Part shown: positions 61-34,603 of the stretch, piece after piece
How positions within the stretch are numbered: position 1 is the stretch's first letter
Layout of the letters: each line of letters opens with the position of its first letter
NCBI GenBank assembly: GCA_001873375.1
Contig: MNZA01000223.1
Location: 14,810 to 49,468 of the forward strand
Reading direction: 5' to 3'
DNA from: Oscillatoriales cyanobacterium CG2_30_44_21
Lineage (GTDB): Bacteria > Cyanobacteriota > Cyanobacteriia > Pseudanabaenales > Pseudanabaenaceae
DNA length: 34,659 nucleotides
Made by a program: the position numbers and the translations under genes
Notes under the pieces: model-generated
The model's input: only the letters and a program-made list of their open reading frames with translations
The model's database searches: none
What the model was told of the DNA's origin: nothing

Positions 61-660
61 ATGTTAGTTCAAACTAAACGATTTACGATCGCCGAATATC
101 AACGTCTTTTCGACTTGGGAATGCTGCAAAATGGTGCTGAGCGGGAACGTACGGAATTAATAAGAGGAGAAATTACACATATGGCAGCAAAGGGAACAAG
201 ACATACCGTTTGTTGTAGTAACTTGATGAGCGAGTTATATAAACTTGTGAATGATCGCGCCATTATTCGCTGTCAAGATCCGATCTTTTTACCGCCCAAT
301 AGCTCTCCAGAACCAGATTTTGTAATTGTGCGCGATCGCCCAGACAATTACCTAACAGGGCATCCCACCGCCGCCGATATTTTGTTAGCAATTGAAATTG
401 CCGACTCCTCACTAGAGTACGATCGCAATATTAAAGGTGCGCTCTATGCCGAAGCCGCGATCGCGAACTATTGGCTGTTTAATTTAATTGATAACCGATT
501 GGAAGTTTACAGCGAACCTTATACAGATGCTCAAGGGAAAGGTAACTACGCCCAAAGGCGATATGTACTTGAAAGTCAGGCTGTCAGCCTAAACATATTT
601 CCCAATCAAGATTTAAGCTTAGAGCTAAGTAAAGTTCTACCCAAAACTTTACAAGAATAA
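61..660 (+). CDS. Uma2 family (DUF820) endonuclease-like protein
   Basis: ORF with Uma2-like core: EPDFVIVRDRPDNY, LLAIEIADSSLEYDRNIKGALYAEAAIANYWLFNL. Confidence 0.85.
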   Translation: MLVQTKRFTIAEYQRLFDLGMLQNGAERERTELIRGEITHMAAKGTRHTVCCSNLMSELYKLVNDRAIIRCQDPIFLPPNSSPEPDFVIVRDRPDNYLTGHPTAADILLAIEIADSSLEYDRNIKGALYAEAAIANYWLFNLIDNRLEVYSEPYTDAQGKGNYAQRRYVLESQAVSLNIFPNQDLSLELSKVLPKTLQE

Positions 661-720
661 TGGCGGCGCATCGCGCCGCCATTACTCTGGGATTTTTAAG
701 TCAGCGCAAAGCGCTGTAAA
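659..720. repeat. Hairpin (AATGGCGGCGC-ATC-GCGCCGCCATT, 659-683) followed by conserved tail TTTTTAAGTCAGCGCAAAGCGCTGTAAA (partial family-D element)
   Basis: 11-bp perfect arms; tail shared with copies near 4447, 15279, 18344 and 27690; stem overlaps the stop codon of the Uma2 ORF. Confidence 0.8.
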
Positions 721-757
721 CTGTTTCAGCAACACGAATAATCATCACTAATTAAAA

Positions 758-1657
758 ATGTTGAAGTTTGTCCGTAAGTTAACTAGCCTCGCCGTCTGTA
801 CAGGATTATGTCTAGGAACAGTTGGCAATATAAGCCCTGCATCTGCTGACGATAGTAGTCTAGGGATTGTGATGCGGCGCGGACATTTGCGGGTCGGCAT
901 TGATGCCGCGATCGGCGGACCCTATATGTTTTGGGATGCCAAGACCCAGTATTACAACGGATTCGAGTTAGAGATTATTCGCGAAATCGCCTCCAGATTA
1001 AATATTGAATCGCGTCCCATTAATGTGCCTTGGTCAGCCCAGCCTGAAAGTTTAGCTGCACGGCAGGTCGATATTTTGATCAGCGCTAGAGAAGAAGGTG
1101 GGCTAGATAGTGGCAATACCAAGGGCAAATTTATTGAAACTACTTCCTACTATCGCAATGCTCAAAGATTATTGGTTCGTGCTGATGGCGGGCTGCAAGT
1201 TCGCTCCTTGCGGGACTTAGTTGGCAAGCGCGTAGGAGTTGTCGCCAACAGTGGTGGCGCAGCGATCGCCGAAACCTATAATAAAAACAGAGGTAATGCC
1301 ATTCGTTTATTTTCATCACGAGATCTTGATCGAATGGTGATTCAACTGCGCGATCGCCAACTGGATGCGCTGATTTTGGATGAGCCTGTGGCAGTGTGGC
1401 AAGTCCGCAATAACCCCAACTTTGGCGTTGTCGGTGAACCGCTAATTCCGATTCGGCTCGTGGCGGTGGTCAATAAAGAAGATGTTTCACTCAAGAAAGC
1501 TGTGGATAAAGCTTTAACAGAGATGCGACAAGAGGGTAAACTCGAACAAATACTAAAAAGGTGGAACCTGTGGGAAGGTCAGAAAACTTTAAAATCAACA
1601 AAGGAATTGCCAGCTATGGTCTTAGCGATCATTACGCAGTCCTCGGTCTACCGATGA
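758..1657 (+). CDS. ABC transporter substrate-binding protein, family 3 (amino-acid type) periplasmic
   Basis: Signal peptide; LRVGIDAAIGGPYMFWD, GFELEIIREIASRL, LVGKRVGVVANSGG, LDEPVAVW. Confidence 0.85.
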   Translation: MLKFVRKLTSLAVCTGLCLGTVGNISPASADDSSLGIVMRRGHLRVGIDAAIGGPYMFWDAKTQYYNGFELEIIREIASRLNIESRPINVPWSAQPESLAARQVDILISAREEGGLDSGNTKGKFIETTSYYRNAQRLLVRADGGLQVRSLRDLVGKRVGVVANSGGAAIAETYNKNRGNAIRLFSSRDLDRMVIQLRDRQLDALILDEPVAVWQVRNNPNFGVVGEPLIPIRLVAVVNKEDVSLKKAVDKALTEMRQEGKLEQILKRWNLWEGQKTLKSTKELPAMVLAIITQSSVYR

Positions 1658-2460
1658 CCACTGACGTGGCACAAATTCGCAAAAAATTTCTCAAATTAGC
1701 CAAGGTACTACATCCTGATGTATTTGGTAGATCTGATGAAGAAAAAGAAATTGCCACCAAGTACTTTTCCAAGATGGTCAGCCCCGCCTACCAAGTTCTC
1801 AATAGCGATCGCGATCGCGGTGAGTACTTGGCGACCTTGAGAATGTTTGCCCAAACCAAAAAGCAAAAGCAAGAAGTCCCGACTCTGACGGCAGAACTTT
1901 CACAAAAGCTCTATCGCATTCCCCATGAGATTACTTATAAGCAATATATCGAGCAGGTTTCACCTAAGCAATATGAAAACCTAGATGCGATTTTGGAATA
2001 CACAGAACTACTCAGTGAACTGAATCTTGTCTATTTATTCACCCAAAACAATTTAAGTCTGACACCAAGCGGCGGTGCTGTTGGAGCTAATCCCTCATCG
2101 GTTAGCCCGAATACAACACAAACCCCTGAACCTGCTAAACCTGCTCAATCTCCAGCCTTGCGTAATCTCAACATGGCAGAGCTATTTATCAGTAAAAAGC
2201 AATGGAGTGATGCCCTCAAAGAATTAATCACGGCGGAAAAGCTCGATCCGAATAATGCTAAAGTCTATGCCCTCAAAGGCTTGGTGCAAATGAATCAAAA
2301 TGCCGCCGCGATCGCCAAAGCGAGTTTCCAAAAAGCCCTCAAACTTGACCCGAAAGAACCCACTGCCCTGAAATATTTCAGTCAAGTCAGCGCTCCTGCC
2401 AAGCCTCCCGAAAAACCACCAGAAAAGAAAGGCGGACTTTTTGGCTGGGGTAAAAAGTAA
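1561..2460 (+). CDS. J-domain protein with C-terminal TPR
   Basis: DHYAVLGLPMTTDVAQIRKKFLKLAKVLHPD (HPD motif) plus TPR region; GTG start at 1561 or 1570; overlaps the upstream gene out of frame. Confidence 0.8.
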   Translation: MEPVGRSENFKINKGIASYGLSDHYAVLGLPMTTDVAQIRKKFLKLAKVLHPDVFGRSDEEKEIATKYFSKMVSPAYQVLNSDRDRGEYLATLRMFAQTKKQKQEVPTLTAELSQKLYRIPHEITYKQYIEQVSPKQYENLDAILEYTELLSELNLVYLFTQNNLSLTPSGGAVGANPSSVSPNTTQTPEPAKPAQSPALRNLNMAELFISKKQWSDALKELITAEKLDPNNAKVYALKGLVQMNQNAAAIAKASFQKALKLDPKEPTALKYFSQVSAPAKPPEKPPEKKGGLFGWGKK

Positions 2461-2559
2461 TCAATTCAGATCAAGAGCCTTGTATAGTGAGGCTTTTGCA
2501 GTATTTAATTGGATTTGAAAATTGTTAATAGTCTTGTTATGTAGGTTGAGGCGGACACT

Positions 2560-3579
2560 TTGGATTTCCGAAAACTAAAATACTATCGACATAACTCTTT
2601 GATCCTAGTTGCTAGTAGCGATCAACAGCTTTTATCGACAATTTCCGATGTGTCCAATGCCGAAAAATATAATTTCATCATTGCCAACGATGGCGAAACT
2701 GCTTGGCAATTGATCCTGCAAAAAAAACCCGCCATCATTCTGGCTGACTGGACTATGCCCGATGTGTCTGGCTTAGTCCTCTGCCATCGCACCAAGTCCA
2801 ACTTAGAGTGTCCTAGCCTCGTAGCGATTCATTTTATTTTGATTGTGGAAGCCTTTAACTATCGACAGCGTCAACTCGGTTTTGAAACAGGTGTTGATGA
2901 GTTTTTAGGCAATCCCATTGATCCTTCAGAGTTAAAAACCAGACTGCGATCGGGTTTACGGGCTAGCGCTTTGATGCAATCACTCACATGGACAAATCAA
3001 AGATTACTTGCCCAAAATGATCTCTTAGATGCCCTATCCCTATCCGATCCCTTGACTAGAGTTTTGAGTGAAAAAGCCTTTGCGGGAGTGATCCCCGCGA
3101 TGATGAATCAGTTTCGAGGGTATGGCAGTTACAAGGGCTATAGCTATTTAAGTATTTTAATGATTGATATTGATCGCTTTCATGAGACTGTCCAAGCCTA
3201 TGGTGAAAGTATTGGTGATGAGGCGATTAGGGCGATCGCGGGGCGGCTGACCCATAGCTGTATGGCAAATAGCTTGATCTACAGATATGGATTAGATGAG
3301 TTTGTCTGTGTGACTCCTCACAGTGATATATCAGACAGCGACAATCTCGCAAATAATTTATTGGCAAGTATTCGTAGCCATCCGATCGCCGTTTCGTCGG
3401 GGTTACTTTTCCCCTTAACGATCAGCATCGGAGGGGTCGTGATCGCCCTAGATGCTCAAGATTTAGATAACCTAGATAGACCAGATACTAACTTTGGCAA
3501 GCGAGTAACCCTCGCCGAAAAATCCCTTGCTCAATCGCAAAAGTCTGGCGGCGATCGCGCCTTTATTGAACAAATTTAA
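2560..3579 (+). CDS. Response-regulator-like receiver domain fused to degenerate GGDEF domain (GLDEF)
   Basis: ILADWTMPDVSG receiver core; LTRVLSEKAF, MIDIDRFHETVQAYGESIGDEAIRAIAGRL and YRYGLDEFV; TTG start. Confidence 0.8.
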   Translation: MDFRKLKYYRHNSLILVASSDQQLLSTISDVSNAEKYNFIIANDGETAWQLILQKKPAIILADWTMPDVSGLVLCHRTKSNLECPSLVAIHFILIVEAFNYRQRQLGFETGVDEFLGNPIDPSELKTRLRSGLRASALMQSLTWTNQRLLAQNDLLDALSLSDPLTRVLSEKAFAGVIPAMMNQFRGYGSYKGYSYLSILMIDIDRFHETVQAYGESIGDEAIRAIAGRLTHSCMANSLIYRYGLDEFVCVTPHSDISDSDNLANNLLASIRSHPIAVSSGLLFPLTISIGGVVIALDAQDLDNLDRPDTNFGKRVTLAEKSLAQSQKSGGDRAFIEQI

Positions 3580-3580
3580 G

Positions 3581-3607
3581 GAGTGGCGGCGTTTCGCGCC
3601 GCCACTC
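3581..3607. repeat. Perfect hairpin GAGTGGCGGCG-TTTCG-CGCCGCCACTC
   Basis: 11-bp arms, starts 2 bp after the upstream stop codon. Confidence 0.8.
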
Positions 3608-4072: not shown

Positions 4073-4082
4073 TGACCCATAT

Positions 4083-4117
4083 CAAATAAAGAAATGGCTA
4101 CGCCATTTCTTTATTTG
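4083..4117. repeat. Hairpin CAAATAAAGAAATGGC-TAC-GCCATTTCTTTATTTG (terminal hairpin of the A family)
   Basis: 16-bp perfect arms; same motif at 8617, 13886, 25355, 27432, 29451 and 29567. Confidence 0.85.
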
Positions 4118-4140
4118 AAAAAACATAAAGCCCTGTCTTT

Positions 4141-4400: not shown

Positions 4401-4478
4401 TTAAAACCAAATGTAGTTCCGCCCGCATAGCGGGCGGAACTACATCTGGTTTTTAGGTTAGCGCAAAGCGCTTAAAGC
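4401..4478. repeat. Family-D-like element: AAAACCA-flanked hairpin ATGTAGTTCCGCCCGC-ATA-GCGGGCGGAACTACAT plus AGCGCAAAGCGCT tail
   Basis: 16-bp perfect arms 4411-4445, outer AAAACCA/TGGTTTT, tail 4460-4472. Confidence 0.8.
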
Positions 4479-7229: not shown

Positions 7230-7272
7230 AACCCTCACCCCCTCTCCCTGCATGGGAGAGGGGGTGAGGGTT
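7230..7272. repeat. Hairpin AACCCTCACCCCCTCTCCC-TGCAT-GGGAGAGGGGGTGAGGGTT
   Basis: 19-bp perfect arms; related in sequence to the CCCTCA repeats at 25407 and 33128. Confidence 0.85.
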
Positions 7273-7282: not shown

Positions 7283-7329
7283 GTAAAGATTTAGCAAGAT
7301 CGCCTACGGCGATCTTGCTAAATCTTTAC
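7283..7329. repeat. Hairpin GTAAAGATTTAGCAAGATCGCC-TAC-GGCGATCTTGCTAAATCTTTAC
   Basis: 22-bp perfect arms, right arm includes the stop codon of the minus-strand gene ending at 7326. Confidence 0.9.
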
Positions 7330-8545: not shown

Positions 8546-8652
8546 TAATACCAATTTACAAAAGTGTGACTACACTTTTATGAATTAAAAACCAAAACCA
8601 GTATAAGTTTTTAAGTAAAGAAATGGCTATGCCATCTCTTTACTTGGCATAA
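8546..8652 (+). repeat. Family-A multi-hairpin element, full-length copy
   Basis: TAATACCAA...ACAAAAGTGTGACTACACTTTTATGAATTAAAAACCAAAACCAGTATAAGTTTTTAAGTAAAGAAATGGCTATGCCATCTCTTTACTTGGCATAA; aligns with 29498-29604. Confidence 0.8.
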
Positions 8653-9208: not shown

Positions 9209-12200
9209 ATGACAACGACATCTGTACGTTTTTCTCAGTTTAATGCTTCTCTAAATCGCAATGCTGAAGGACAGTTAGTTACTGATCTTTCAACTCCAAA
9301 TAACGCTCAGGCAAAAGCAGTTGCCGAAATTATTCAACGCAATAATCCTGATGTGTTGCTAATCAATGAATTTGACTATGTATCAGCAAATCCATTGCAA
9401 CCTGTGCAACTTTTGCAACAAAACTATTTAGGAGTTAGCCAAAATGGTGCTAATCCTGTTGATTATCCTTTTGTTTACATTGCGCCATCAAATACTGGAA
9501 TTTCATCAGGATTTGACTTAAATAATAATGGTACGGCGGTGACAACTGTCGGTGCAGCAGGATATGGTGATGACTCTTTTGGGTTTGGTCAATTCCCTGG
9601 ACAATTTGGGATGTTGTTGTTCTCTAAGTATGAGATTGACACCGCAAATATTCGCACTTTCCAGAATTTCCTTTGGAAAGATATGCCGAACAACCTGCTC
9701 ACCAACGATCCCACCATTGACAATCCTGCAACTCCTGTCAATGAGAACCTGAATGGTTTTTATGCTCCTGAAGAAATTGCCGTATTGCGTCTATCTTCTA
9801 AGAGTCATTGGGATGTGCCAATTAAGGTCAATGGCGAGACTGTTCATTTATTGCTGAGCCATCCTACACCACCAACTTTTGATGGCACTGAAGACCGCAA
9901 TGGCAAGCGCAATTCCGATGAAATTCGTTTTTGGGCTGACTACATTACCCCAAACAAGGGCGGCTACATCTACGATGATCAAGGTGGCTCTGGCGGTATT
10001 GCCAATGGTTCTAGCTTCGTAATTATGGGCGATCAAAATGCTGATCCCCGTGATGGAGACAGCTTTAATAATGCCATTCGTCAATTGCTGCTAAATCCGA
10101 ACATTAATACTAATTTTGTCCCAGCCAGTTTGGGCGGAGCGCAACAATCTGATTTGCAAGCAGGCGCGAATGTTAACCAAAAAGGTAATCCTGCCTTTGA
10201 TACTGCTGACTTCAATGATAATCCCGCTCCAGGTAACTTGAGAACAGATTATGTGTTGCCTTCAAGCGACTTGCAAATCACTAATTCGGCGGTCTATTGG
10301 CCACTTAATAGCGATCCTAACTTTGCACCTGTTGGCACTTTCCCGTTCCCTAGTTCTGATCATCGCCTGATTTATGCAGATGTACAGGTGGGCGCAACCC
10401 CAGCAGGTAAGACCTTGACTGAGGCGAATTTGTTGGGAAATACCACCTTTGCGACGGGCTTTGTGCCGACTGGAGCCGCCGCGCAAATTAATGGTGTGGA
10501 TGTAACCGTGGGCGGCTTGTCTGGTGTGACTTATGACGCAACCAATAATCGCTACTATGCAATCTCAGACGATCGCTCTGCCGATGCGCGTTTTTATACC
10601 TTCACTCTCGATGCTGTGACAAATGCGGTCACGTTCACCAATGTAGTTCAGTTAAAAGATGCTAGTGGTAATCCTTTTGCCGCAAACTCTCTCGATCCTG
10701 AAGGGATTGCCTTAACCAAGAATGGCACAGTGTTCATTTCTTCGGAAGGTGAAGTAAATCTTGGCGCTGGTCGCGTTGGCGATCCTTTTATTAAGGAGTT
10801 TTCGCTAACGACTGGTCAAGAAGTGCGATCGCTGCCTGTTCCTAAAAAATTCTCGCCTGTGGTGGTTGATACCAACAACAGTGGCACGGTCAATACTGGC
10901 GATACTCAAACGGCTGGCGTTCGCAATAACTTGGCTTTTGAGAGCTTAACGATCGCCCCCAATCAAAAGACACTCTACACCGCAACTGAAAATGCGCTGA
11001 TCCAAGATGGATTACCTGCGACCGTTAACAATGGTTCGCGATCGCGCATTATTCAGTACAACCTGATCAGTGGTCAGCCCGAAAAGGAATATCTCTATGT
11101 CACCGATCCTGTGGCGATCGCGCCTAATCCTGCTGGTCAATTTGCCACTAATGGTTTAGTGGATTTGTTGGCGATCGACGATCGCGGCACTTTGTTAGCG
11201 GTGGAGCGCTCCTTTGCAGTGGGTGCAGTTGGCACTGGCAACACGATCAAGATTTACGAAATCACCTTGCAAGGCGCAACTGATATTAGTTTTAATGATT
11301 CGCTAAGCAGCTTAACCACCGATCAATTTGCCGCGATCGCCCCTGTCCAAAAGCGCTTAGTTCTCAATCTTGATGATTTGAATTTGCCCACTGGCACAGA
11401 CAACATCGAAGGCATCGCCTTTGGACCCAAGCTTGCCGATGGTCGTCAGTCGATTGTGTTGGTCAGCGACAACAACTTCAGCCCTACCCAATTTACACAA
11501 ATCCTTACCCTGAGCGCTGATATTGCCGCTAATCCCAATTCTTTAGTCAATGGTGTGGCGAGTGGTGATACTACTCAAAACTCGACTGTACTCTGGACTC
11601 GCAGCGCGATCGCTGGTGCGGTTAAGTTTGAATATTCCACAACTGCCGATTTCAGTGCGATCGCTGGTACTAAAAATGCCACAGTTACCAATCCCTTGCA
11701 ACCCGTCAAGGTTGATGTCACAGGGCTAACCGCCGATACTGATTACTTTTATCGTGTCACCGATGCGGCTGGAGTGACTGCCACTGGTAAATTCAGCACG
11801 GCGGCAGCGATCGGCAAGCAATCAGGATTACGCTTTGGAGTTGCTGGCGACTGGCGTGGTGAAATTGCGCCTTACCCTGCGATCGCCAATGCCGATGAAC
11901 GCGACCTGAGATTCTTTGTGGAACTGGGCGACACCATCTACGCTGACTTTGCTTCTCCTGCCGTTCTTAACGCTGATGGTACTGAAAAAGATCAAGTCAC
12001 CACCCTTGACGAGTACCGCGCCAAACATAGTGAAGTCTATGGCGATCGCTTTGGGCAAAACTTCTGGGCAGAGCTTCGCGCTTCGACTTCTGTTTTGGTA
12101 ACCATTGACGATCACGAAGTCGTTAATGACTTCCAAGGTGGTCAAGATGCCTCGACCCTATCCGCCGCCAATCAAGCTTTGTTTGGCGCAACCTCAGGAC

Positions 12201-13879
12201 TAGTCAATGATTCGCCCCTCTATGAAAATGGTTTGCAATCTTTCCAAGAGTACAACCCCATCCGTGATGAATTTTACGGAGCCACAGGTGACGCTCGCAC
12301 TGCTAACGAACGCAAACTTTACCGCGCCAATACCTACGGCTCCGATGCCGTAAACATTGTCCTCGATGCCCGTTCCTTCCGCGACCTTGGACTAACCAAC
12401 GTCACGAACCTCGCCGACCAAGTTCAAGTTGGCACATTTTTAGCGCAGTCCTTTAATCCCTCTCGGACATTCCTCGGTCGCGTTCAAGTGGAAGACCTCA
12501 AGCGCGATTTGCTACAAGCCCAAAAAGATGGCGTGACTTGGAAGTTCATCAATTTGCCTGAACCAGTGCAAAATCTCGGTGTACTCGCAGCAAGCGATCG
12601 CTATGAAGGCTATGCTGCTGAACGCACGGAAATCCTCAAGTTCATTGATGACAACAAGATCAATAACGTTGTCTTTATCGCCGCCGATATTCACGGCACA
12701 TTGGTTAATAACCTCACCTATCAGCTAGGGGTCGGTCAAGCGCAAATTGCTACCAATGCCTTTGAAATTACCACTGGCTCGGTTGCTTTCGATGCCCCTT
12801 TTGGCCCCACAGTTGCCGATCTTGCAGTTGCGGCTGGCATCCTTGATGCTAACGGCAAAGCTTTCTACGATTCTCTCCCTGTGGCAAATGACGCAGATAG
12901 TGCGCTCAATGACAAGGATGACTTTATTAAATCCATTGTCGATGGCGGTTTAGCACCTCTTGGCTACGATCCTCTCGGACTCAACAACAACCTCGCTCAA
13001 GCCAATGGCTTAATCAAGGCAAAATTGCTAAAAGGCGATTATGTAGCAACTCAAACCTACGGTTGGACAGAGTTTGACATCGATCCTATTACCCAAAAGC
13101 TAACCGTCACCACCTACGGTATCAAGCCTTACACCCGTGCCGAATTGGAAGCCGATCCTAATTTGATCATCAGCCGCACTCCCCAGATTGTCAGCCAGTT
13201 TGAAGTGGAAGCTAATCAAGTTGTTGCTGAAGCCAAACTCGTTGGCGTTGGCTCAATTAATAACGATGATTTGCTTGCCATCAATGGTCAAACCTTTGAC
13301 GGACGCAGCAATATCGTCTTCACAGGCGCAGGTACTGACAAAGTGGATCTGCTATTTAATCCATCCTTTGCGGTCGGCAACAACCGCATTGATACAGGTA
13401 GTGCCAGCGACATTATTTTTGTCAGCCAAGGCGATCGCGTCTTCGGTGGATCTGATAACGATATCTTTGAAGCCACAGAAAGCAAGGGCAACAACCGTAT
13501 GTCTGGCGGCGCTGGCGATGATACTTTCTTCCTCGGCAGTGGCGATCGCGCTCTCGGCGGTGACGGTGTTGACAAGTTCTTCGCTGGCGAAGGCGGCGGC
13601 AACTTACTCTCAGGTGGTGCAGGCGCTGATCAATTCTGGATCTTCAACGGCGATGTACCAGCGAGTGCTAACACCATTGCTGACTTCCAAATTGGTACTG
13701 ATGTGATCGGTTTCCAAAATGCAAGCTTTGGTCTGGCGGATATTGTTCGTTCTGGCAACAATATTTCTGTTATGGATGGCAGTAACAATATGTTGAAAGT
13801 AATCGCCACTTTCTCAAATGTCGATACATCTGGCTTGAATGCTTCTAGCTTTGTATTTCTCACTGGTTCTGCCGTGTAA
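9209..13879 (+). CDS. Modular secreted phosphoesterase: endonuclease/exonuclease/phosphatase + phytase-like esterase + PhoD alkaline phosphatase + RTX C-terminus
   Basis: INEFD, LLSHPTPP, VIMGDQNADP, SSDHRLIYAD (EEP); GGLSGVTYDATNNRYYAISDDRS and LAFESLTIAPNQKTLYTATENAL (esterase-like phytase); NSLVNGVASGDTTQNSTVLWTR, VELGDTIYAD, TIDDHEVVND, AADIHGT (PhoD); MSGGAGDDTFFLGSGD and LSGGAGADQF (RTX). Confidence 0.85.
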   Translation: MTTTSVRFSQFNASLNRNAEGQLVTDLSTPNNAQAKAVAEIIQRNNPDVLLINEFDYVSANPLQPVQLLQQNYLGVSQNGANPVDYPFVYIAPSNTGISSGFDLNNNGTAVTTVGAAGYGDDSFGFGQFPGQFGMLLFSKYEIDTANIRTFQNFLWKDMPNNLLTNDPTIDNPATPVNENLNGFYAPEEIAVLRLSSKSHWDVPIKVNGETVHLLLSHPTPPTFDGTEDRNGKRNSDEIRFWADYITPNKGGYIYDDQGGSGGIANGSSFVIMGDQNADPRDGDSFNNAIRQLLLNPNINTNFVPASLGGAQQSDLQAGANVNQKGNPAFDTADFNDNPAPGNLRTDYVLPSSDLQITNSAVYWPLNSDPNFAPVGTFPFPSSDHRLIYADVQVGATPAGKTLTEANLLGNTTFATGFVPTGAAAQINGVDVTVGGLSGVTYDATNNRYYAISDDRSADARFYTFTLDAVTNAVTFTNVVQLKDASGNPFAANSLDPEGIALTKNGTVFISSEGEVNLGAGRVGDPFIKEFSLTTGQEVRSLPVPKKFSPVVVDTNNSGTVNTGDTQTAGVRNNLAFESLTIAPNQKTLYTATENALIQDGLPATVNNGSRSRIIQYNLISGQPEKEYLYVTDPVAIAPNPAGQFATNGLVDLLAIDDRGTLLAVERSFAVGAVGTGNTIKIYEITLQGATDISFNDSLSSLTTDQFAAIAPVQKRLVLNLDDLNLPTGTDNIEGIAFGPKLADGRQSIVLVSDNNFSPTQFTQILTLSADIAANPNSLVNGVASGDTTQNSTVLWTRSAIAGAVKFEYSTTADFSAIAGTKNATVTNPLQPVKVDVTGLTADTDYFYRVTDAAGVTATGKFSTAAAIGKQSGLRFGVAGDWRGEIAPYPAIANADERDLRFFVELGDTIYADFASPAVLNADGTEKDQVTTLDEYRAKHSEVYGDRFGQNFWAELRASTSVLVTIDDHEVVNDFQGGQDASTLSAANQALFGATSGLVNDSPLYENGLQSFQEYNPIRDEFYGATGDARTANERKLYRANTYGSDAVNIVLDARSFRDLGLTNVTNLADQVQVGTFLAQSFNPSRTFLGRVQVEDLKRDLLQAQKDGVTWKFINLPEPVQNLGVLAASDRYEGYAAERTEILKFIDDNKINNVVFIAADIHGTLVNNLTYQLGVGQAQIATNAFEITTGSVAFDAPFGPTVADLAVAAGILDANGKAFYDSLPVANDADSALNDKDDFIKSIVDGGLAPLGYDPLGLNNNLAQANGLIKAKLLKGDYVATQTYGWTEFDIDPITQKLTVTTYGIKPYTRAELEADPNLIISRTPQIVSQFEVEANQVVAEAKLVGVGSINNDDLLAINGQTFDGRSNIVFTGAGTDKVDLLFNPSFAVGNNRIDTGSASDIIFVSQGDRVFGGSDNDIFEATESKGNNRMSGGAGDDTFFLGSGDRALGGDGVDKFFAGEGGGNLLSGGAGADQFWIFNGDVPASANTIADFQIGTDVIGFQNASFGLADIVRSGNNISVMDGSNNMLKVIATFSNVDTSGLNASSFVFLTGSAV

Positions 13880-13885: not shown

Positions 13886-13914
13886 ATAAAGAAATGGCGT
13901 AGCCATTTCTTTAT
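13886..13914. repeat. A-family hairpin ATAAAGAAATGGC-GTA-GCCATTTCTTTAT
   Basis: 13-bp perfect arms. Confidence 0.8.
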
Positions 13915-13918: not shown

Positions 13919-13955
13919 AATAAGGGGGGCGCGGCTTTGCCGCGCACCCCTTATT
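13919..13955. repeat. Hairpin AATAAGGGGgGCGCGGC-TTT-GCCGCGCaCCCCTTATT
   Basis: 17-bp arms with one mismatch between convergent genes; possible bidirectional terminator. Confidence 0.75.
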
Positions 13956-15142: not shown

Positions 15143-15388
15143 CCAAATTCACCAACATTGTAGTCACACTTTTGTGAATTTAAAAACCCCAAAAGCATAT
15201 AGCCTATGAAAGCTTTAAGGGATACAGATAAAATCTTGAAAGCGGCGCGTCTCGCCGCTTTCAAGATTTTATCTGTATTTTAAGTTAGCGCAAAGCACTA
15301 TAAATACAATGTTTGTAAATTTAAAACCAACCTCAGTATGGATTTTTAAACAAAGAAATAACCATGCTATTTCTTTGTTTAGTGTTAT
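15143..15388 (+). repeat. Family-A element interrupted by a family-D element
   Basis: 15143-15190 and 15312-15388 align with the left and right parts of the A copy at 29498; D copy at 15198-15302 lies between. Confidence 0.6.
15198..15302 (-). repeat. Family-D 105-bp element; hairpin 15222-15278
   Basis: Termini TATAG...CTATA; 26-bp perfect arms ATACAGATAAAATCTTGAAAGCGGCG; tail TTAGCGCAAAGCACTATA. Confidence 0.8.
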
Positions 15389-18343: not shown

Positions 18344-18448
18344 TACAGCGCTTTGCGCTTAATTAAAACCCAGAAATATTTTTGAGAGCGGCGCTTCGCG
18401 CCGCTCTCAAAAATATTTCTGTACTACTCAAAGCCTCAATAGGCTGTA
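18344..18448 (+). repeat. Family-D 105-bp element; hairpin 18371-18421
   Basis: Termini TACAG...CTGTA; 24-bp perfect arms CAGAAATATTTTTGAGAGCGGCGC-TTC-; AGCGCTTTGCGCT arm; same length as 15198-15302. Confidence 0.85.
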
Positions 18449-20068: not shown

Positions 20069-20103
20069 AATTTAGTGGAGGCGCGAAGCGCCTCCACTAA
20101 ATT
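20069..20103. repeat. Hairpin AATTTAGTGGAGGCGC-GAA-GCGCCTCCACTAAATT
   Basis: 16-bp perfect arms between psbZ and ribH. Confidence 0.85.
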
Positions 20104-20391: not shown

Positions 20392-20452
20392 ATAAAGAAC
20401 TAGATTTCCAGTGACGCGGCTGCGCCGCGGCACTGGAAAATCGGTTCTTTAT
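20392..20452. repeat. Family-B hairpin with ATAAAGAACCGATTTT-type ends
   Basis: ATAAAGAACTAGATTTCCAGTGACGCGGC-TGC-GCCGCGGCACTGGAAAATCGGTTCTTTAT; ends shared with 34542-34603. Confidence 0.8.
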
Positions 20453-22810: not shown

Positions 22811-22913
22811 TTATACCAAGCAAATAAATGGCAGAGCCATTTATTTAAAAACCCATACTGGGTCTGGTTTTCAATTAACAAAGGTGTAGTTACATTTTTG
22901 GGAATTGGTATTA
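22811..22913 (-). repeat. Family-A multi-hairpin element, full-length copy, inverted
   Basis: TTATACCAAG...AAATAAATGGCAGAGCCATTTATTT...ACCCATACTGGGTCTGGTTTTCAATTAACAAAGGTGTAGTTACATTTTTGGGAATTGGTATTA. Confidence 0.8.
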
Positions 22914-25354: not shown

Positions 25355-25379
25355 AAATAAATGGCTACGCCATTTATTT
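25355..25379. repeat. A-family hairpin AAATAAATGGC-TAC-GCCATTTATTT
   Basis: 11-bp perfect arms after the rne stop. Confidence 0.8.
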
Positions 25380-25406: not shown

Positions 25407-25506
25407 CCCTCATCCCCCAGCCCCTTCTCCCGCAGGAGAAGGGGAGAAATATTAAATTAAATTTCTTGTTCCCCTCTCCTGCGGGAGAGGGGCTAGGGGT
25501 GAAGGG
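25407..25506. repeat. Family-G 100-bp double-hairpin repeat
   Basis: CCCTCATCCCCCAGCCCCTTCTCCCGCAGGAGAAGGGGAGAAATATTAAATTAAATTTCTTGTTCCCCTCTCCTGCGGGAGAGGGGCTAGGGGTGAAGGG; near-identical to 33128-33221. Confidence 0.9.
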
Positions 25507-25540
25507 TTAGATCTTCGGTGTGTCAAATATATTAACGCCA

Positions 25541-25571
25541 TTAAAAAGCAGCGCATCGCGCTGCTTTTTAA
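25541..25571. repeat. Hairpin TTAAAAAGCAGCGC-ATC-GCGCTGCTTTTTAA
   Basis: 14-bp perfect arms. Confidence 0.85.
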
Positions 25572-25577
25572 TAGAAA

Positions 25578-27356: not shown

Positions 27357-27431
27357 ACGGTCAAAAAACTAGTCTCAAGAATTTCCGCATTAACCTAGCC
27401 TAAATATAGCTGTAGCCAGACAAGTTATACC

Positions 27432-27464
27432 AAATGAAGAAATGGCTATGCCATTTCTTCATTT
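27432..27464. repeat. A-family hairpin AAATGAAGAAATGGC-TAT-GCCATTTCTTCATTT
   Basis: 15-bp perfect arms. Confidence 0.85.
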
Positions 27465-27478
27465 AAAAACTAGAAGAT

Positions 27479-27505
27479 GAGTGGCAACGCTTCGCGTTGC
27501 CACTC
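27479..27505. repeat. Hairpin GAGTGGCAACGC-TTC-GCGTTGCCACTC
   Basis: 12-bp perfect arms. Confidence 0.85.
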
Positions 27506-27513
27506 TTTAACTG

Positions 27514-27568
27514 ACCGAAGAAATTTTTAGAAGCGCGGCGGAGCCGCGCTTCTAAAAATTTCTTCGGT
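27514..27568. repeat. Hairpin ACCGAAGAAATTTTTAGAAGCGCGGC-GGA-GCCGCGCTTCTAAAAATTTCTTCGGT
   Basis: 26-bp perfect arms. Confidence 0.9.
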
Positions 27569-27575
27569 TTGAGTA

Positions 27576-27600
27576 AACGCCAAGTGTTGCACTTGGCGTT
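27576..27600. repeat. Hairpin AACGCCAAGTG-TTG-CACTTGGCGTT
   Basis: 11-bp perfect arms. Confidence 0.85.
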
Positions 27601-27689
27601 CTTAACATTTCGTAGCAATTCAACTCGCTAGAAGTCCAAGGATTGTCGATATCATGGTAAGCAGCAATATATATAGCTGTCGCCAGTTT

Positions 27690-27852: not shown

Positions 27853-28392
27853 ATGAGTCAAGCTTCTGTACCCGCCGATGTTCCCAGCATGGGTCGTCGC
27901 CAATTTATGAACCTAATTTTAGGGGGTTCTGCTGCCGTCACATCTCTTGCTGCTCTTTATCCTGTAGCTGCCTATTTTGTCCCCCCTTCTAAAGGTGGCG
28001 CAGGCGGTGGTGTAGCTGCTAAAGATGCCCTTGGCAAAGACATTCTTGCTTCGGCATTTTTGGCAAACCATCAAGCAGGCGATCGCGAACTGGCTCAAGG
28101 GCTAAAGGGTGATCCCACATATATCGTGGTGACGGACACCAAAGAAATTGAATCCTATGGCTTAAATGCCGTATGTACGCACCTTGGCTGTGTTGTACCT
28201 TGGAATGCTGCTGAAAACAAATTTATCTGTCCTTGCCACGGTTCGCAATACAACAATGAGGGCAAGGTCGTTCGTGGTCCTGCGCCATTGTCGCTCGCAC
28301 TTGCCCATGCCACAGTTGCCGATGACATTGTGCAGTTCAGCACATGGACAGAAACTGATTTCCGCACCAATGACGCTCCTTGGTGGTCTTAA
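27853..28392 (+). CDS. petC: Cytochrome b6-f complex Rieske iron-sulfur protein
   Basis: [27 protein letters not shown]; twin-arginine-like [13 protein letters not shown]-terminus. Confidence 0.97.
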
Positions 28393-28399
28393 TAATTTT

Positions 28400-28432
28400 T
28401 TTTGATGGCGCGACTACGCTGCGCCATCAAAA
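28400..28432. repeat. Hairpin TTTTGATGGCGC...GCGCCATCAAAA in the petC-petA spacer
   Basis: 12-bp perfect arms, 9-nt loop. Confidence 0.85.
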
Positions 28433-28463
28433 TAGACAATGCAATTTACATTTGAACTTATAC

Positions 28464-29447
28464 ATGAAAAAAGCTTTTTTACCAGTTAGTCGTTTGCTTT
28501 TAGGATTTAGCCTAAGCATCCTCACAAGCTTGACATTACTGTTTGGACTGAATGTCCAATCTGCTAACGCCTATCCATACTATGCTCAGGAAGCCTACAA
28601 GACACCCCGTGAAGCCACAGGCAAGATCGTTTGTGCTAACTGCCATCTTGCTCAAAAAGGGATTGAACTAGAGTTGCCTCAGTCTGTACTGCCTGATTCT
28701 GTGTTTGAAGCGGTGGTTAAACTGCCCTATGACCACAACTTACAACAAGTTACCGCGGACGGAAGTAAGACAGGCTTGAATGTCGGCGCGGTACTTGTAT
28801 TACCCGAAGGCTTCAAAATTGCTCCTGAAGATCGCTTGTCTGAAGAAATGAAAGAAAAGACTAAGGATATTTACTACCAACCCTATAGCGATACCCAAGA
28901 AAATATCGTTTTGGTAGGACCAATATCTGGAGATGAATATCCTGAGATTACTTTCCCAGTGCTTTCTCCTGATCCTGCTAAGGACAAAAATGTTCACTTT
29001 CTTAAATATGCTGTCCATGCTGGCGGCAACCGTGGGCGTGGTCAAGTGTATCCAACAGGTGAAAAGAGCAATAACAATGAGTACACTTCATCGGTTTCTG
29101 GTCTAGTTACCCAAATTAGTTCTATCGAGCCTAATGAAGATGAAGGTATCTACGGTGGTTATCAGATCTCGGTGCAAACTACTGATGGCAGTGTTGCTAC
29201 TGAGTCAGTTCCTGCTGGTGCAACTTTGATTGTCGAGCCTGGTAGTGAAGTTACGGTTGGCTCAGCCTTGACGACTAACCCCAATGTGGGTGGATTTGGA
29301 CAACATGATGGTGAAATTGTGTTGCAAGATCCTCGCCGTGTTCAGTGGTTGTTGGCATTCTTTGCTTCTGTAATCGTGACCCAAATCTTGTTGGTATTGA
29401 AGAAGAAGCAAGTCGAAAAAGTTCAAGCCGCAGAAATGAATTTCTAA
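28464..29447 (+). CDS. petA: Cytochrome f (apocytochrome f precursor)
   Basis: ANAYPYYAQEAYKTPREATGKIVCANCHLA; C-terminal LLAFFASVIVTQILLVLKKKQVEKVQAAEMNF; ATG 28464 follows the hairpin. Confidence 0.97.
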   Translation: MKKAFLPVSRLLLGFSLSILTSLTLLFGLNVQSANAYPYYAQEAYKTPREATGKIVCANCHLAQKGIELELPQSVLPDSVFEAVVKLPYDHNLQQVTADGSKTGLNVGAVLVLPEGFKIAPEDRLSEEMKEKTKDIYYQPYSDTQENIVLVGPISGDEYPEITFPVLSPDPAKDKNVHFLKYAVHAGGNRGRGQVYPTGEKSNNNEYTSSVSGLVTQISSIEPNEDEGIYGGYQISVQTTDGSVATESVPAGATLIVEPGSEVTVGSALTTNPNVGGFGQHDGEIVLQDPRRVQWLLAFFASVIVTQILLVLKKKQVEKVQAAEMNF

Positions 29448-29450: not shown

Positions 29451-29485
29451 CAAGTAAAGAAATGGCGGAGCCATTTCTTTACTTG
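29451..29485. repeat. A-family hairpin CAAGTAAAGAAATGGC-GGA-GCCATTTCTTTACTTG
   Basis: 16-bp perfect arms after petA. Confidence 0.85.
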
Positions 29486-29497: not shown

Positions 29498-29604
29498 TAA
29501 TACCAATTCACAAAAGTGTAGTCACACTTTTGTGAATTGAAAACCAAACCCAGTATGGGTTTTCAAATAAAGAAATGGCTCCGCCATTTCTTTATTTGGT
29601 ATAA
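29498..29604 (+). repeat. Family-A multi-hairpin element, full-length copy
   Basis: TAATACCAATTCACAAAAGTGTAGTCACACTTTTGTGAATTGAAAACCAAACCCAGTATGGGTTTTCAAATAAAGAAATGGCTCCGCCATTTCTTTATTTGGTATAA. Confidence 0.9.
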
Positions 29605-29630
29605 AGCGCGGCGATCGCCGCGCTTTTTTT
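29603..29630 (+). terminator. Rho-independent terminator-like hairpin AAAGCGCGGCGATCGCCGCGCTTTTTTT
   Basis: Perfect GC-rich palindrome followed by T tract, between convergent genes. Confidence 0.7.
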
Positions 29631-30797: not shown

Positions 30798-30798
30798 A

Positions 30799-31266
30799 CT
30801 AATTTATTCGTAATTTCTCAAACCACGATCGCAGCAGTTCTTGACATTCCCTTTCTCTGATCCCCGCGATCACTTCCAACCGATGAAAGGATGCAGGGCT
30901 GTCGGGAAGATTAAGGACAGTGCAGATAGAGCCAGTTTTGGGATCGTCTGCACCATAGACTATGGTGCTAAGCCTTGATTGCACAATTGCGCCTGCACAC
31001 ATGGGGCAAGGCTCCAGAGTTACATAGAGTGTACAGCCCGTCAGATGCCAATCGTGCAAGTTTTTAGCGGCTTCTCTAATCGCAATCATCTCTGCGTGAG
31101 CCGTAGGATCTTGCGATCGCTCTTTATAATTTGCGCCTAGCCCGATCGCCTCTCCTTGAGCATTAACCACTACCGCACCGACAGGGATTTCTCCCGCCAC
31201 GCCCGCGGCTTTGGCTAAGGCGATCGCCTGATCCATCCAACTCTGATATGTGGCTAAGTCTTGCAT
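30799..31266 (-). CDS. tadA: tRNA-specific adenosine deaminase
   Basis: DPTAHAEMIAIREAAK, LYVTLEPCPMCAGAIVQSRL; Met at 31266 preferred to the 31335 start, which runs through a hairpin. Confidence 0.93.
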   Translation of the reverse strand: MQDLATYQSWMDQAIALAKAAGVAGEIPVGAVVVNAQGEAIGLGANYKERSQDPTAHAEMIAIREAAKNLHDWHLTGCTLYVTLEPCPMCAGAIVQSRLSTIVYGADDPKTGSICTVLNLPDSPASFHRLEVIAGIRERECQELLRSWFEKLRIN

Positions 31267-31295
31267 TGGCGTTTGCACTAAAGTAGAGCCAGAAT

Positions 31296-31328
31296 ATAGA
31301 ATAGCGCCGCTTCGCGGCGCTATTCTAT
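31296..31328. repeat. Hairpin ATAGAATAGCGCCGC-TTC-GCGGCGCTATTCTAT in the tadA/birA divergent region
   Basis: 15-bp perfect arms. Confidence 0.9.
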
Positions 31329-31341
31329 GAAACAAAGATTT

Positions 31342-32052
31342 ATGAAAATAATTAGATATGAAGAAATTGATTCCACTAATAGTGAAGCATGGCGGTTAAT
31401 CGATCAGGGAAAAGGCTCCGCGAATACAGTTATTGTCGCTAAGCGCCAAACTAAGGGGCGAGGACAGCGCGGCAATATTTGGCGATCGCCATTGGGCGGA
31501 TTGTTTATGTCGGTGATTTTGCAGCCCAATTTAGAGGCTAGCAGAGCTAATCAAATTACGCTGTGGTCAGCTTGGGGGATCGCCAAGGCGCTCAATCAGA
31601 CAGGAGCCAATGTCAAGCTGAAATGGCTCAATGATTTACTAATTGATCGGCGCAAACTTGGCGGGATTCTCACGGAGACACGGATTGAGTCGGGACGAAT
31701 TAATTATGCAGTAGTAGGAATCGGCATCAACTGGACAAATGAAGTGCCTGAAGGCGCGATCGCCTTGGGCGAATTGCCGACAACTCTATCGAGTATGGAT
31801 GAGTTAATTGATGTAGTAATTGCGGGACTGCAAATGGCACAGCAATGTTACGAGCAGGAGGGGATTGCCAAGATTTTGGCGGAATATTTAGAAATGCTCA
31901 GCGATCGCCATATCCGTAAAAATATCGATGGACAGGAACTTTATGGAGAAATCATTGACATTAGATCAACTTGTGAACTGGTAGTAAGATGGAATGGCAA
32001 ATGCCAAGACCAGATCTATCAGCCTCAAAATTTTTCTGTCGGCTACCTGTAG
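31342..32052 (+). CDS. birA: Biotin--[acetyl-CoA-carboxylase] ligase
   Basis: IDSTNSEAWRL, KRQTKGRGQRGNIWRSPLGGLFMSVIL, LKWLNDLLIDRRKLGGILTET, VVGIGINW. Confidence 0.93.
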   Translation: MKIIRYEEIDSTNSEAWRLIDQGKGSANTVIVAKRQTKGRGQRGNIWRSPLGGLFMSVILQPNLEASRANQITLWSAWGIAKALNQTGANVKLKWLNDLLIDRRKLGGILTETRIESGRINYAVVGIGINWTNEVPEGAIALGELPTTLSSMDELIDVVIAGLQMAQQCYEQEGIAKILAEYLEMLSDRHIRKNIDGQELYGEIIDIRSTCELVVRWNGKCQDQIYQPQNFSVGYL

Positions 32053-32061
32053 ACCTAAAAT

Positions 32062-33063
32062 ATGCGAAAATTCACTTTCTCAACTATTACTTTAGCAACA
32101 TTGCTTTGCATCACCAGCAATAACTATTTTCTAGTTAGCTCTGCCTATGCCGCTTCTAAATCAGCAATCTCTCCAGATGTCCTAGTTATTCAAAATACCG
32201 ATCCGATCCAGCCCGCACCAGAAATAGCTCCCCCGCCCACATTACCGATCGCCAATGATCGCGAGCCAATCCAAGTAAATATCGAGTCTGCGGATACTGT
32301 CTTTAAATCTCCAGCCCCAGATGAAAGTAATCCTGAGCGATCGCCCATCGTGGAAGCCCCTGAAGTTATCTTAGAAAACCGTGCTAATGGCTGTAAGTTC
32401 AGCGCCAGTAGCTTACTAGAACGGGATCAGAATTTTTGTAATCCTCAAGTAGCTTCTAAATCCGCCCCCAGTCGCCAAGGCGAAAGCTATCAAGAGGATA
32501 GCGGTGTTCTTTATGCGGCAGCATCAGAAACAACTTCCTTACAAGTGCGCCGCCTTAGTGCCAAAGAAATCGCCGCCATCAGCTTGCCTAGCAATGGTGA
32601 CAAGCAAATGCTGTTTCCCCTAATTGTGCCGACAATTATTAGTTCTCTTTTTGGCGATCGCGTTCATCCGATTACAGGACAAGTGCGCTTTCATCAAGGT
32701 ACTGACCTTGCCGCCCCAGAAGGTACACCCGTAGTCGCCGCCTTTAGTGGTACGGTCGAAATTGCAGGCTGGGCTGGTGGCTATGGCTTGATGGTCAGCA
32801 TCACCCATGGCGACACCCATGAGACCCGTTATGCTCACCTCTCAGAAGTACTAGTTGAGTCAGGGCAAAAAGTCAAACAAGGAACGGTGATCGGACTAGT
32901 CGGCAGCACAGGAATGTCCACGGGAGCGCACTTGCATTTTGAGATCTGGCAACGCCTAAAAGATGGCATGGTGGCGATCGACCCCACCTCGCAACTTGTT
33001 TTAGCGATGGATAATTTGCAAAAATATCTCGCTCAGATTTCCAAATCTTCTAACAAAGCGTAA
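32062..33063 (+). CDS. M23 family metallopeptidase
   Basis: FGDRVHPITGQVRFHQGTDLAAPEGTPVVAAFSGTVEIAGWAGGYGLMVSITHGDTHETRYAHLSEV...STGAHLHFEIW. Confidence 0.93.
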   Translation: MRKFTFSTITLATLLCITSNNYFLVSSAYAASKSAISPDVLVIQNTDPIQPAPEIAPPPTLPIANDREPIQVNIESADTVFKSPAPDESNPERSPIVEAPEVILENRANGCKFSASSLLERDQNFCNPQVASKSAPSRQGESYQEDSGVLYAAASETTSLQVRRLSAKEIAAISLPSNGDKQMLFPLIVPTIISSLFGDRVHPITGQVRFHQGTDLAAPEGTPVVAAFSGTVEIAGWAGGYGLMVSITHGDTHETRYAHLSEVLVESGQKVKQGTVIGLVGSTGMSTGAHLHFEIWQRLKDGMVAIDPTSQLVLAMDNLQKYLAQISKSSNKA

Positions 33064-33070
33064 AACCAAA

Positions 33071-33113
33071 AAAGATCTTAAAAGCGCTGCTTCGCAGCGC
33101 TTTTAAGATCTTT
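33071..33113. repeat. Hairpin AAAGATCTTAAAAGCGCTGC-TTC-GCAGCGCTTTTAAGATCTTT
   Basis: 20-bp perfect arms. Confidence 0.9.
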
Positions 33114-33127
33114 ATCTTTTTTGGCTC

Positions 33128-33221
33128 CCCTCATCCCCCAGCCCCTTCTCCCGCAGGAGAAGGGGAGAAATATTAAATTTCTTGTTCCCCTGTCCTGCGG
33201 GAGAGGGGCTAGGGGTGAGGG
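33128..33221. repeat. Family-G 94-bp double-hairpin repeat
   Basis: Near-identical to 25407-25506 with a short AAATT-type deletion. Confidence 0.9.
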
Positions 33222-33262
33222 CTTAGCGCTTTGCGAGTTTCAAGTCATTTTTGCGTAAGCGC

Positions 33263-33301
33263 AAAATTTGATGGCGCGGCATCGCCGCGCCATCAAATTT
33301 T
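33263..33301. repeat. Hairpin AAAATTTGATGGCGCGGC-ATC-GCCGCGCCATCAAATTTT
   Basis: 18-bp perfect arms. Confidence 0.9.
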
Positions 33302-33317
33302 GATTGCTTGACTAAAA

Positions 33318-34505
33318 TCAGGGACCTTGAATAATTGTAAAGTCGGATTCCGTATCAAACTTCCTCACATTTGATACAGAATAACTGGGAATCTCAACGG
33401 AGTACTTGACTAAATGCAGGATTGCCTTAGCTTCAGGAGAATTAATTTGTACCAGCGCTCTCAACACCGCACTACGGACTGAGCGATCGCCGTCTTTGAT
33501 TGCTTGCGACAGATAAAATACAGCATCATGACTGCCAATTTCTCCCATCGCCAAAGCGGCATCACATCTTACATAGGCATATTCATCTTCGCGCAACACT
33601 TTCGCGAGGAGTGGCACAACTTCATCGATGCCAATTTGTCCTAAGGTTCTAGCGGCAACGCTGCGAGTATGGCTAGAATTTGTACTCAGCATTTTTGCCA
33701 CAGGCGTAATCGCAGGAGCGCCAATACTTTTGAGGGCTTGGACAGCCTGAGACTGCACGCTGATATCGTTCTCAGTTAGCAAATTAGCGAGGGCATTGGC
33801 GGACAATGGCGACTTGATTTGTCCTAAAGCCCAAGCTGCCTCGAGGCGGACAGCCTTACTCTCATTGCCCAGAGCTTGAATGAGGGTGGTGACGGCTAAG
33901 GGTGAGCTAATCTGGCCGAGGGAATGCGCGGCATGGACTTTGACCATGTTGTCACTGTGCTTGAGGGCTTCGACTAGGGGCGATACGGCGGGCAGACTGG
34001 CGCGACCAAGGGCTTTTGCCACCGCCGACTGTACCTGAATCGAAGGATGACGTAATAATTTGACCAGTGAACTAATCGCCTCCGCACTGCCAATCCAAGC
34101 TAAAGCTGAAGCCGCTTGCCAGTGAATTTGGCGATGGGGATTTTGGGTTGCGGATATCAAAGGAGCGATCGCCATCGGCGATCGCAAATATCCGAGAGCG
34201 ATCGCCGCTTTCTTGGAAGTGGCGACTTCATCGCTCTCTAAGCGTTCTAGCAAGGCGGGAACCAGATTTTCACGACAACGGATTAGCTTTTGCAGGGCTG
34301 TAGAAAATTGATCGGAACGATTTGCCGCGTCAAATTCCGCCAAGATAGCTGACTCGCCACCTAGCTCTGGTGCTGACATGATATGTCGGTTTTCAGGCAT
34401 CGCGTACCCAGGTGAGGCAGGAATGCGATAGTCCTCCATTCTGGGCGCTTGCACCTTGGCATTATTTGGTGGCACGGAAGCCCTAGGTAATTGCGGCTCG
34501 TTCAT
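33318..34505 (-). CDS. HEAT-repeat (PBS-lyase-like) protein
   Basis: Repeated units such as AVAKALGRASLPAVSPLVEALKHSDNMVKVHAAHSLGQI. Confidence 0.9.
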   Translation of the reverse strand: MNEPQLPRASVPPNNAKVQAPRMEDYRIPASPGYAMPENRHIMSAPELGGESAILAEFDAANRSDQFSTALQKLIRCRENLVPALLERLESDEVATSKKAAIALGYLRSPMAIAPLISATQNPHRQIHWQAASALAWIGSAEAISSLVKLLRHPSIQVQSAVAKALGRASLPAVSPLVEALKHSDNMVKVHAAHSLGQISSPLAVTTLIQALGNESKAVRLEAAWALGQIKSPLSANALANLLTENDISVQSQAVQALKSIGAPAITPVAKMLSTNSSHTRSVAARTLGQIGIDEVVPLLAKVLREDEYAYVRCDAALAMGEIGSHDAVFYLSQAIKDGDRSVRSAVLRALVQINSPEAKAILHLVKYSVEIPSYSVSNVRKFDTESDFTIIQGP

Positions 34506-34541
34506 GGCATTGTCTTAGTCAAGCGTTTAGCTGGGGCATAA

Positions 34542-34603
34542 AATAAAGAACCGATTTTTGAAGTTGCGGTTTCACCGCAACTTCAAAAATCAGGTTCTTT
34601 ATT
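34542..34603. repeat. Family-B hairpin AATAAAGAACCGATTTTTGAAGTTGCGGT-TTC-ACCGCAACTTCAAAAATCAGGTTCTTTATT
   Basis: ~29-bp near-perfect arms; outer 16 bp shared with 20392-20452. Confidence 0.88.

Follow-up and report, generated by a model that had tools for sequence, protein, structure and literature searches.

The 34,659-nt stretch of DNA analysed here, referred to as the window (positions 14810-49468 of contig MNZA01000223.1), comes from a sampled 3.5 Mb Pseudanabaena genome (Oscillatoriales cyanobacterium CG2_30_44_21; G000) and carries a dense set of intergenic DNA hairpins, most of them with a 3-nt loop closed by GC pairs (GC-NNN-GC), whose arms change together and whose loops invert in place between relatives. 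With an arm score of at least 10 and a loop of 0-9 nt, the window contains 37 inverted repeats, compared to 0-1 in each of 10 dinucleotide shuffles, so that a chance origin is rejected; the first-pass annotation, which had reported at least 25 such repeats and proposed a shuffled background as the yardstick, is borne out. The seven loci that it quoted (7283, 18371, 20069, 27514, 31296, 33071 and 33263) all exist, the last beginning at 33262. Loops of 3 nt are the commonest (24 hairpins) and 20 of these 24 have the GC tip; the tip described for almost all hairpins therefore applies to most of them, with exceptions at 7283 (CC-TAC-GG) and 27576 (TG-TTG-CA) and 5-nt loops at 15222 and 3581. In 368 kb of G000, 3-nt loops occur in 184 of 281 inverted repeats, and the GC tip in 165 of the 184; a sample of 850 kb contains 501 three-loop hairpins, of which 458 carry the GC tip and 381 a perfect stem. 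This extrapolates to about 2,000 hairpins per Pseudanabaena genome.

Listing the arms from the loop outwards defines the families F1 to F4. F1 reads AAATAAAGAAATGGC, then NNN, and has window members at 4082, 8613, 13886, 27432, 29451 and 29564, with short variants at 22822 and 25355. The F2 core, GGTTGTTCCGCCCGC, occurs in 133 exact copies in G000 and in 49 in G010, a metagenome-assembled comparison genome with 85% identity to G000. The core of F3, ...ATTTTGAAAGCGNNGC with a variable tip, has 21 to 256 copies in each of the 14 Pseudanabaena genomes searched (14/14), and F4, CAATTCACAAAAGTGT, has a 4-nt loop and occurs at many places in G000 and G010. Within G000, a second arm that matches to within 2 of 12 bases exists for 437 of 484 arms, compared to 259-278 after shuffling, and the remaining 47 are singletons; stems vary widely, and the outer 4-mers of the arms are AAAA, CAGA, CAAG and similar. 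The earlier description of arms as largely unrelated between loci was overstated, as most belong to a few families and some form the core of elements resembling miniature inverted-repeat transposable elements (MITEs). The F2 and F3 cores are absent from the nine genomes of other genera searched, two of them from the same family, and in a census of RNase E loci the 162 kb from Pseudanabaena contain 38 GC-NNN-GC hairpins, compared to none at 72 loci from other cyanobacteria (1.26 Mb); the hairpin system is thus restricted to the genus, as far as sampled. The hairpins have no match in Rfam, and a known RNA family is rejected as their identity. The features of the window are as follows, with no strand assigned to the hairpins.

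658-684: GC-ATC-GC hairpin with TAATGGCGGCGC arms, overlapping the stop of the open reading frame (ORF) 61-660
3581-3607: hairpin GAGTGGCGGCG / CGCCGCCACTC, 5-nt loop, degenerate tip
4082-4118: F1 hairpin, TCAAATAAAGAAATGGC-TAC
4403-4453: F2 hairpin, GTTCCGCCCGC-ATA, 1 mismatch
7283-7329: perfect 22-bp hairpin, tip CC-TAC-GG, not GC
8613-8645: F1 hairpin, 1 mismatch
13886-13914: F1 hairpin, loop GTA; the G010 counterpart has the flipped loop TAC and a two-arm A:T/G:C change
13919-13955: GGC-TTT-GCC hairpin (GCGCGGC tip)
15222-15278: perfect 26-bp hairpin, 5-nt loop; the orthologous G010 spacer holds a different hairpin
18371-18421: F3 hairpin, CAGAAATATTTTTGAGAGCGGCGC-TTC, 24 bp, perfect
20069-20103: hairpin AATTTAGTGGAGGCGC-GAA; at the same G010 site, one two-arm change and loop TTT (flip plus one)
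20392-20452: hairpin, tip GGC-TGC-GCC (core 20405-20439); missing from G010, where the flanks are conserved
22822-22846: short F1 variant, AAATAAATGGC-AGA
25355-25379: short F1 variant, AAATAAATGGC-TAC, directly past the stop of the RNase E/G gene (25350)
25540-25572: GC-ATC-GC hairpin with T-tract in a convergent spacer; most relatives have a different hairpin in this spacer
27405-27418, plus strand: terminal inverted repeat (TIR)-like motif TATAGCTGTAGCCA, adjoining the hairpin cluster 27432-27600; second copy at 27672-27685
27432-27464: F1 hairpin, AAATGAAGAAATGGC-TAT
27479-27505: hairpin GAGTGGCAACGC-TTC
27514-27568: F3 hairpin, 26 bp, perfect, GGC-GGA-GCC tip; 50 related G000 places among the matches listed
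27576-27600: hairpin AACGCCAAGTG-TTG, TG-TTG-CA tip
28400-28432: hairpin in an intra-operon spacer; GC-GGA-GC / GC-TCC-GC hairpins at the orthologous position in the G016/G007/G029/G009 clade
29451-29485: F1 hairpin; two pairs differ in the G010 orthologue, each changed on both arms
29504-29539: F4 hairpin, 4-nt loop, no GC tip; internal control family
29564-29598: F1 hairpin, CAAATAAAGAAATGGC-TCC
31296-31328: GC-TTC-GC hairpin at a divergent gene boundary; the G010 orthologue has loop TAA and matched changes in both arms
33071-33113: GC-TTC-GC hairpin, 3' of the stop of ORF 32062-33063
33262-33302: GGC-ATC-GCC hairpin, CAAAATTTGATGGCGCGGC
34553-34591: perfect 18-bp hairpin, GT-TTC-AC tip

Also in the window are a palindrome with an F3-type stem, AAAGCGCGGC-GATC-GCCGCGCTTT (29603-29626), whose tip contains the HIP1 core CGATCG (GGCGATCGCC), and a separate repeat family, CCCCAGCCCCTTCTCC...GGAGAAGGGG (25415-25499, 33136-33215 and 7230-7272), which has larger loops and no GC-NNN-GC tip.

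Across the genome, the hairpins occupy spacers, where contexts are approximate as gene calls come from a simple codon-usage script. In the first G000 sample, 4 of 212 lie inside genes (about 98% extragenic), and the typical position is 20-30 nt past a stop codon. Hairpins in tandem spacers are closer to the upstream stop in 77 cases versus 27, and their density peaks in convergent spacers; more than half of divergent spacers also hold one, and G000 and G010 each have more than 100 hairpins in such spacers. A T- or U-rich tail beyond the stem accompanies only about 25% of hairpins. The placement agrees with the initial description of many at stop codons, and others in divergent or intra-operon spacers and lacking a U tract.

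Comparison of orthologous sites in G000 and G010 reveals both rapid turnover and coordinated change. Of 131 anchored G000 hairpins, 35 have the same element in G010, 31 have a different hairpin and 65 have none, so that hairpins are often gained, lost or replaced. Among the 35 shared sites, 10 have an unchanged loop and 10 its exact reverse complement, and most others are within one base of either; permuting 3-nt loops among sites predicts 2.5 exact flips where 9 are observed (p=0.0005). Within the subset with conserved flanks (29 sites), 8 loops are flipped and 9 unchanged. For example, L198:5448 differs in the loop alone (ATA/TAT), L190:3306 differs by one C:G/A:T pair inside a shared stem, and L021:10726 differs by one G:C/C:G pair together with the loop. 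Flips affect hairpins with arms of only 11-15 bp, a length at which ordinary assembly ambiguity is not expected, as well as MITE copies whose cores measure 14 bp, making an assembly artefact unlikely as their sole cause.

The stems at the 29 conserved-flank sites (539 positions) carry 42 two-arm and 14 one-arm changes, where independent drift at 14.8% divergence per base predicts about 4 two-arm and 136 one-arm changes. The two-arm changes comprise 23 transitions and 19 transversions, and no G-U intermediate explains the latter. Both arms change together between relatives, a point that the first-pass annotation had proposed to check, and the same arms under ordinary drift were not what was found, as drift is mostly two-sided. 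Its proposal of complete sequence turnover at each locus holds only in part: some sites have long arm stretches replaced symmetrically, but recognisable families account for most hairpins, and between distant species much of the turnover consists of gain, loss or replacement of whole elements. At 16 absent sites examined, no clear half-element precursor was found (a lone arm in the relative, with the hairpin in the other genome).

Closer species were compared at one spacer (window 28392-28464), where G016, G007, G029, G009 and G030 carry a GTTTAGGATAGACGGCGC-type hairpin and have about 93-96% identity in the adjoining coding region. Across its 112 bases, G029 and G009 differ by one substitution and a GGA/TCC loop inversion, and G030, G005 and G011 are set apart from the others by a shared T:A to A:T difference on both arms. 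Within genomes, arm coupling was quantified by one-arm ascertainment, in which every half-match to F1-F3 was collected and the other arm was scored wherever the first departs from consensus. The other arm matches 78-82% of departures in F1-F3, equally across convergent, tandem and divergent spacers, and only 20-47% in F4 with its 4-nt loop; these fractions are descriptive, as each palindrome counts once per strand and paralogues have a common origin. F4 loops flip too (GACT/AGTC at L191:2897), with arm coupling much below that of the GC-NNN-GC families.

The composition of the tip is also distinctive. Loops of the form GNA or TNC account for 64% in G000 and 58% in G010, compared to 14% of GCNNNGC heptamers outside hairpins. 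A GC stem with a GNA triloop is the d(GCGNAGC) mini-hairpin, an exceptionally stable DNA hairpin (Hirao, Yoshizawa; described in PMC4686876), which is a biophysical motif rather than a genomic element family and is exactly the commonest tip here. On the mRNA strand, 159 loops are TNC and 158 are GNA; the absence of a strand preference indicates that what is favoured is a hairpin in the DNA, on whichever strand, rather than a particular RNA loop. In the F3 tip, AAAGCGNNGC-NNN-GCNNCGCTTT, 99 of 108 copies have complementary bases at the free NN positions, where the dinucleotides are diverse.

A young MITE-like family in G010 has copies whose orientation is known. The element (44 hits) is about 115 bp long, its two halves are asymmetric, it ends in TATAGC.../...GCTATA and its flanks are diverse; the ends hint at a putative TA target duplication. 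When copies are oriented by their flanks, the loop is GNA in 22 and TNC in 15. The outer arms of the commonest copies pair for only 14 bp; pairing is perfect over 25-28 bp in L143:2445, L159:5964 and L215:558, one arm is now the complement of the other across the outer stretch in L032:12396, L226:1183, L035:9293 and L221:19889, and L141:16554 and L132:18792 carry single two-arm transversions. Such rewritten arms and two-arm transversions are what arm-to-arm copying is expected to leave behind. No parent transposase was found between TIR motifs: the only long pair, at L214, encloses a DEAD-box-helicase-like ORF (identity judged by eye) and was rejected as the parent transposon. These MITE-like features were observed in this one G010 family, and most hairpins are not assigned to MITEs. 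TIR-like motifs TATAGCTGTNGCCA lie at window positions 27405, 27672 and 34620 (plus strand) and 22506 (minus strand); in G010, such motifs bound MITE-like elements with a hairpin core.

Overall, the hairpins belong to several genus-specific families of palindromes resembling MITEs and repetitive extragenic palindromic (REP) elements, which are probably inverted and re-symmetrised by replication template switching. We infer template switching as the process and the stability of the tip as its driver. In particular, single-stranded DNA with a GC-NNN-GC tip, mostly a GNA or TNC triloop, would fold back on itself as a highly stable mini-hairpin, at which the nascent strand may change template during replication (interstrand switching). 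Switch points on either side of the tip would invert the centre and turn the loop into its own reverse complement, and two switch points within one arm would recopy that arm from the other, spreading a mutation to both arms or erasing it; one process could then account for both the flips and the arm coupling. The first-pass annotation had postulated an active process that regenerates symmetry, and such a process is supported by the 42:14 ratio of two-arm to one-arm changes, in-place inversion of about half of the loops, the rewriting of single arms in the young MITE family and coupling independent of gene context, equal even where a terminator would serve no purpose, while its molecular steps are our proposal and selection on RNA may contribute.

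Several observations weigh against this interpretation. The comparison genome is a metagenome assembly, a hairpin had to be detectable in both genomes to enter the orthologue set, some of the two-arm differences among paralogues were inherited and are not independent, and the evidence lies between genomes and copies, with no template-switch event observed within a strain. One-arm changes are mainly transitions (11:2; contrast with two-arm changes, p=0.10) and G-U mismatches exceed A-C mismatches on the mRNA strand (94:70, p=0.07), which may reflect some contribution of RNA-level selection. These two biases would be accommodated by functional RNA elements, either bidirectional intrinsic terminators or 3'-end stabilisers, whose arms are kept paired by compensatory evolution and whose loop differences are neutral. 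Cyanobacteria are without Rho and, in the species studied, most transcription units do not end at canonical terminators (PMC13289151); the hairpins lie close past stop codons and are densest in convergent spacers, one of which holds a hairpin of differing sequence in most species. However, exact loop inversion at about 50% is not predicted by this explanation, which we consider unlikely given that coupling is equally strong in divergent spacers, two-arm transversions are about as frequent as two-arm transitions, loops have no strand bias, and a U-rich tail outside the stem is present in only about a quarter of cases. The hairpins may serve as terminators or 3' stabilisers, protecting 3' ends or weakly terminating transcription in both directions in a cyanobacterium that lacks Rho, or may have no cellular role.

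Ordinary mobile palindromes of the MITE or REP type, with turnover by insertion, loss and family-member replacement only and with symmetry inherited from the source element, clearly contribute: families are multicopy, elements are present or absent between conserved flanks, and the MITE-like family has diverse flanks. As the whole story, mobility is highly unlikely and is contradicted by the in-place loop inversion at the near-identical G029/G009 site, by orthologous stems within conserved flanks whose differences amount to flipped loops and one or a few matched pairs, and by young MITE copies altered in both arms at one pair (L141:16554 and L132:18792) or with one arm rewritten. The remaining alternative invokes a dedicated enzyme, either a recombinase or a hairpin nuclease such as a second SbcCD, that cuts extruded tips so that repair inverts the loop and resets the arms. 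SbcCD cleaves hairpins. A second SbcD homologue (C265:18317-19537, L177, in G000) is found in all Pseudanabaena of the relatives sample except G012, adjoins an SbcC homologue in both genomes whose coordinates show it (G013 and G016), and at a strict threshold is missing from other genera in a 96-genome sample, bar one distant match; this matches the genus restriction of the hairpins. The correlation, however, spans a single genus in which G012 has a single SbcD, no direct link connects the enzyme to the hairpins, and the genus has the ordinary SbcD and ExoVII, like other cyanobacteria. The second SbcD is a lead, not evidence, and an enzyme of this kind is extremely unlikely to be the cause. 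A bolder version, in which a dedicated Pseudanabaena hairpin-processing activity (possibly the genus-specific second SbcCD) maintains some 2,000 self-copying palindromes under a DNA-level rule instead of point mutation and selection, is a long shot. Loss of a hairpin nuclease was rejected as the cause of genus restriction, as SbcD, SbcC-like genes and ExoVII are all present. Full-length SbcC matches number one in G000 and two in most congeners, which may reflect either a genuine loss or a gap in the assembly.

The template-switching interpretation draws on several known systems. Quasipalindrome correction by replication template switching (the Ripley model) has been established experimentally in E. 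coli thyA and lacZ assays (PMC6357072), where imperfect inverted repeats are made perfect as one arm templates the other. The same rewriting of one arm to the complement of the other is found here, in the 42:14 matched changes and in the MITE-family arms; it is known at reporter hotspots, whereas here it would act at hundreds of natural loci and be coupled to loop inversion. Template switching has also been proposed to create and maintain RNA hairpins, with two-base compensatory changes and loop inversion as its footprints (Monttinen and Loytynoja 2022, PMC8794818); that system concerns rRNA genes, in which loop inversions are very rare, whereas the present one consists of bacterial intergenic repeats with flipped loops about as common as unflipped ones. 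In chloroplast DNA, hairpin-associated small inversions of 5-50 bp occur between 11-24-bp repeats (Kim and Lee 2005, as cited in PMC12928735). There, as here, a loop between short inverted repeats is reverse-complemented in place with unchanged flanks; the present system differs in its 3-nt loop, its dispersed repeat family and its co-evolving arms.

REP and REPIN elements, associated with RAYT transposases (PMC3116915, PMC3733652), are likewise short, extragenic, palindromic and of high copy number, and some REP families have small GC-flanked loops. The hairpins agree with the REP definition (PMC12306157) in being extragenic, palindromic, short and multi-copy (4 of 212 inside genes; 501 in 850 kb). 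The definition also asks for highly similar copies that share a consensus; here F1-F4 are clear families, while stems vary widely and 47 of 484 arms are singletons. The hairpins also differ from REP and REPIN elements in having hypervariable stems and being symmetric single hairpins, and no Y1 (HuH) transposase (PF01797) was found in G000 (99.97% complete) or in G017, although other congeners searched have one; mobilisation by RAYT therefore seems unavailable in G000 now, and a RAYT/REPIN origin was rejected. The GTAG/CGTC tag was not noticed among the commonest outer 4-mers, for which no dedicated test was made. Very small mobile repeats were reportedly described by Elhai et al. in 2008 in cyanobacterial (Nostoc) genomes, a likeness by description only.

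Every component of the proposed system is thus already known; compared to the open-access literature, its genome-wide scale and near-saturated loop inversion appear to be new. Paired two-arm changes are standard evidence for selected RNA structure, but here they seem to stem from DNA copying, an origin that is visible because the loop also flips, and they caution against treating covariation as proof of RNA function. A natural system with an extrapolated 2,000 or so loci per genome would make it possible to measure the natural rate of template switching, and would offer an accessible bacterial parallel to chloroplast DNA hairpin inversions. Elsewhere in the window, positions 9209-13879 encode a 1556-aa protein that combines endonuclease/exonuclease/phosphatase, phytase-like esterase and PhoD phosphatase domains.

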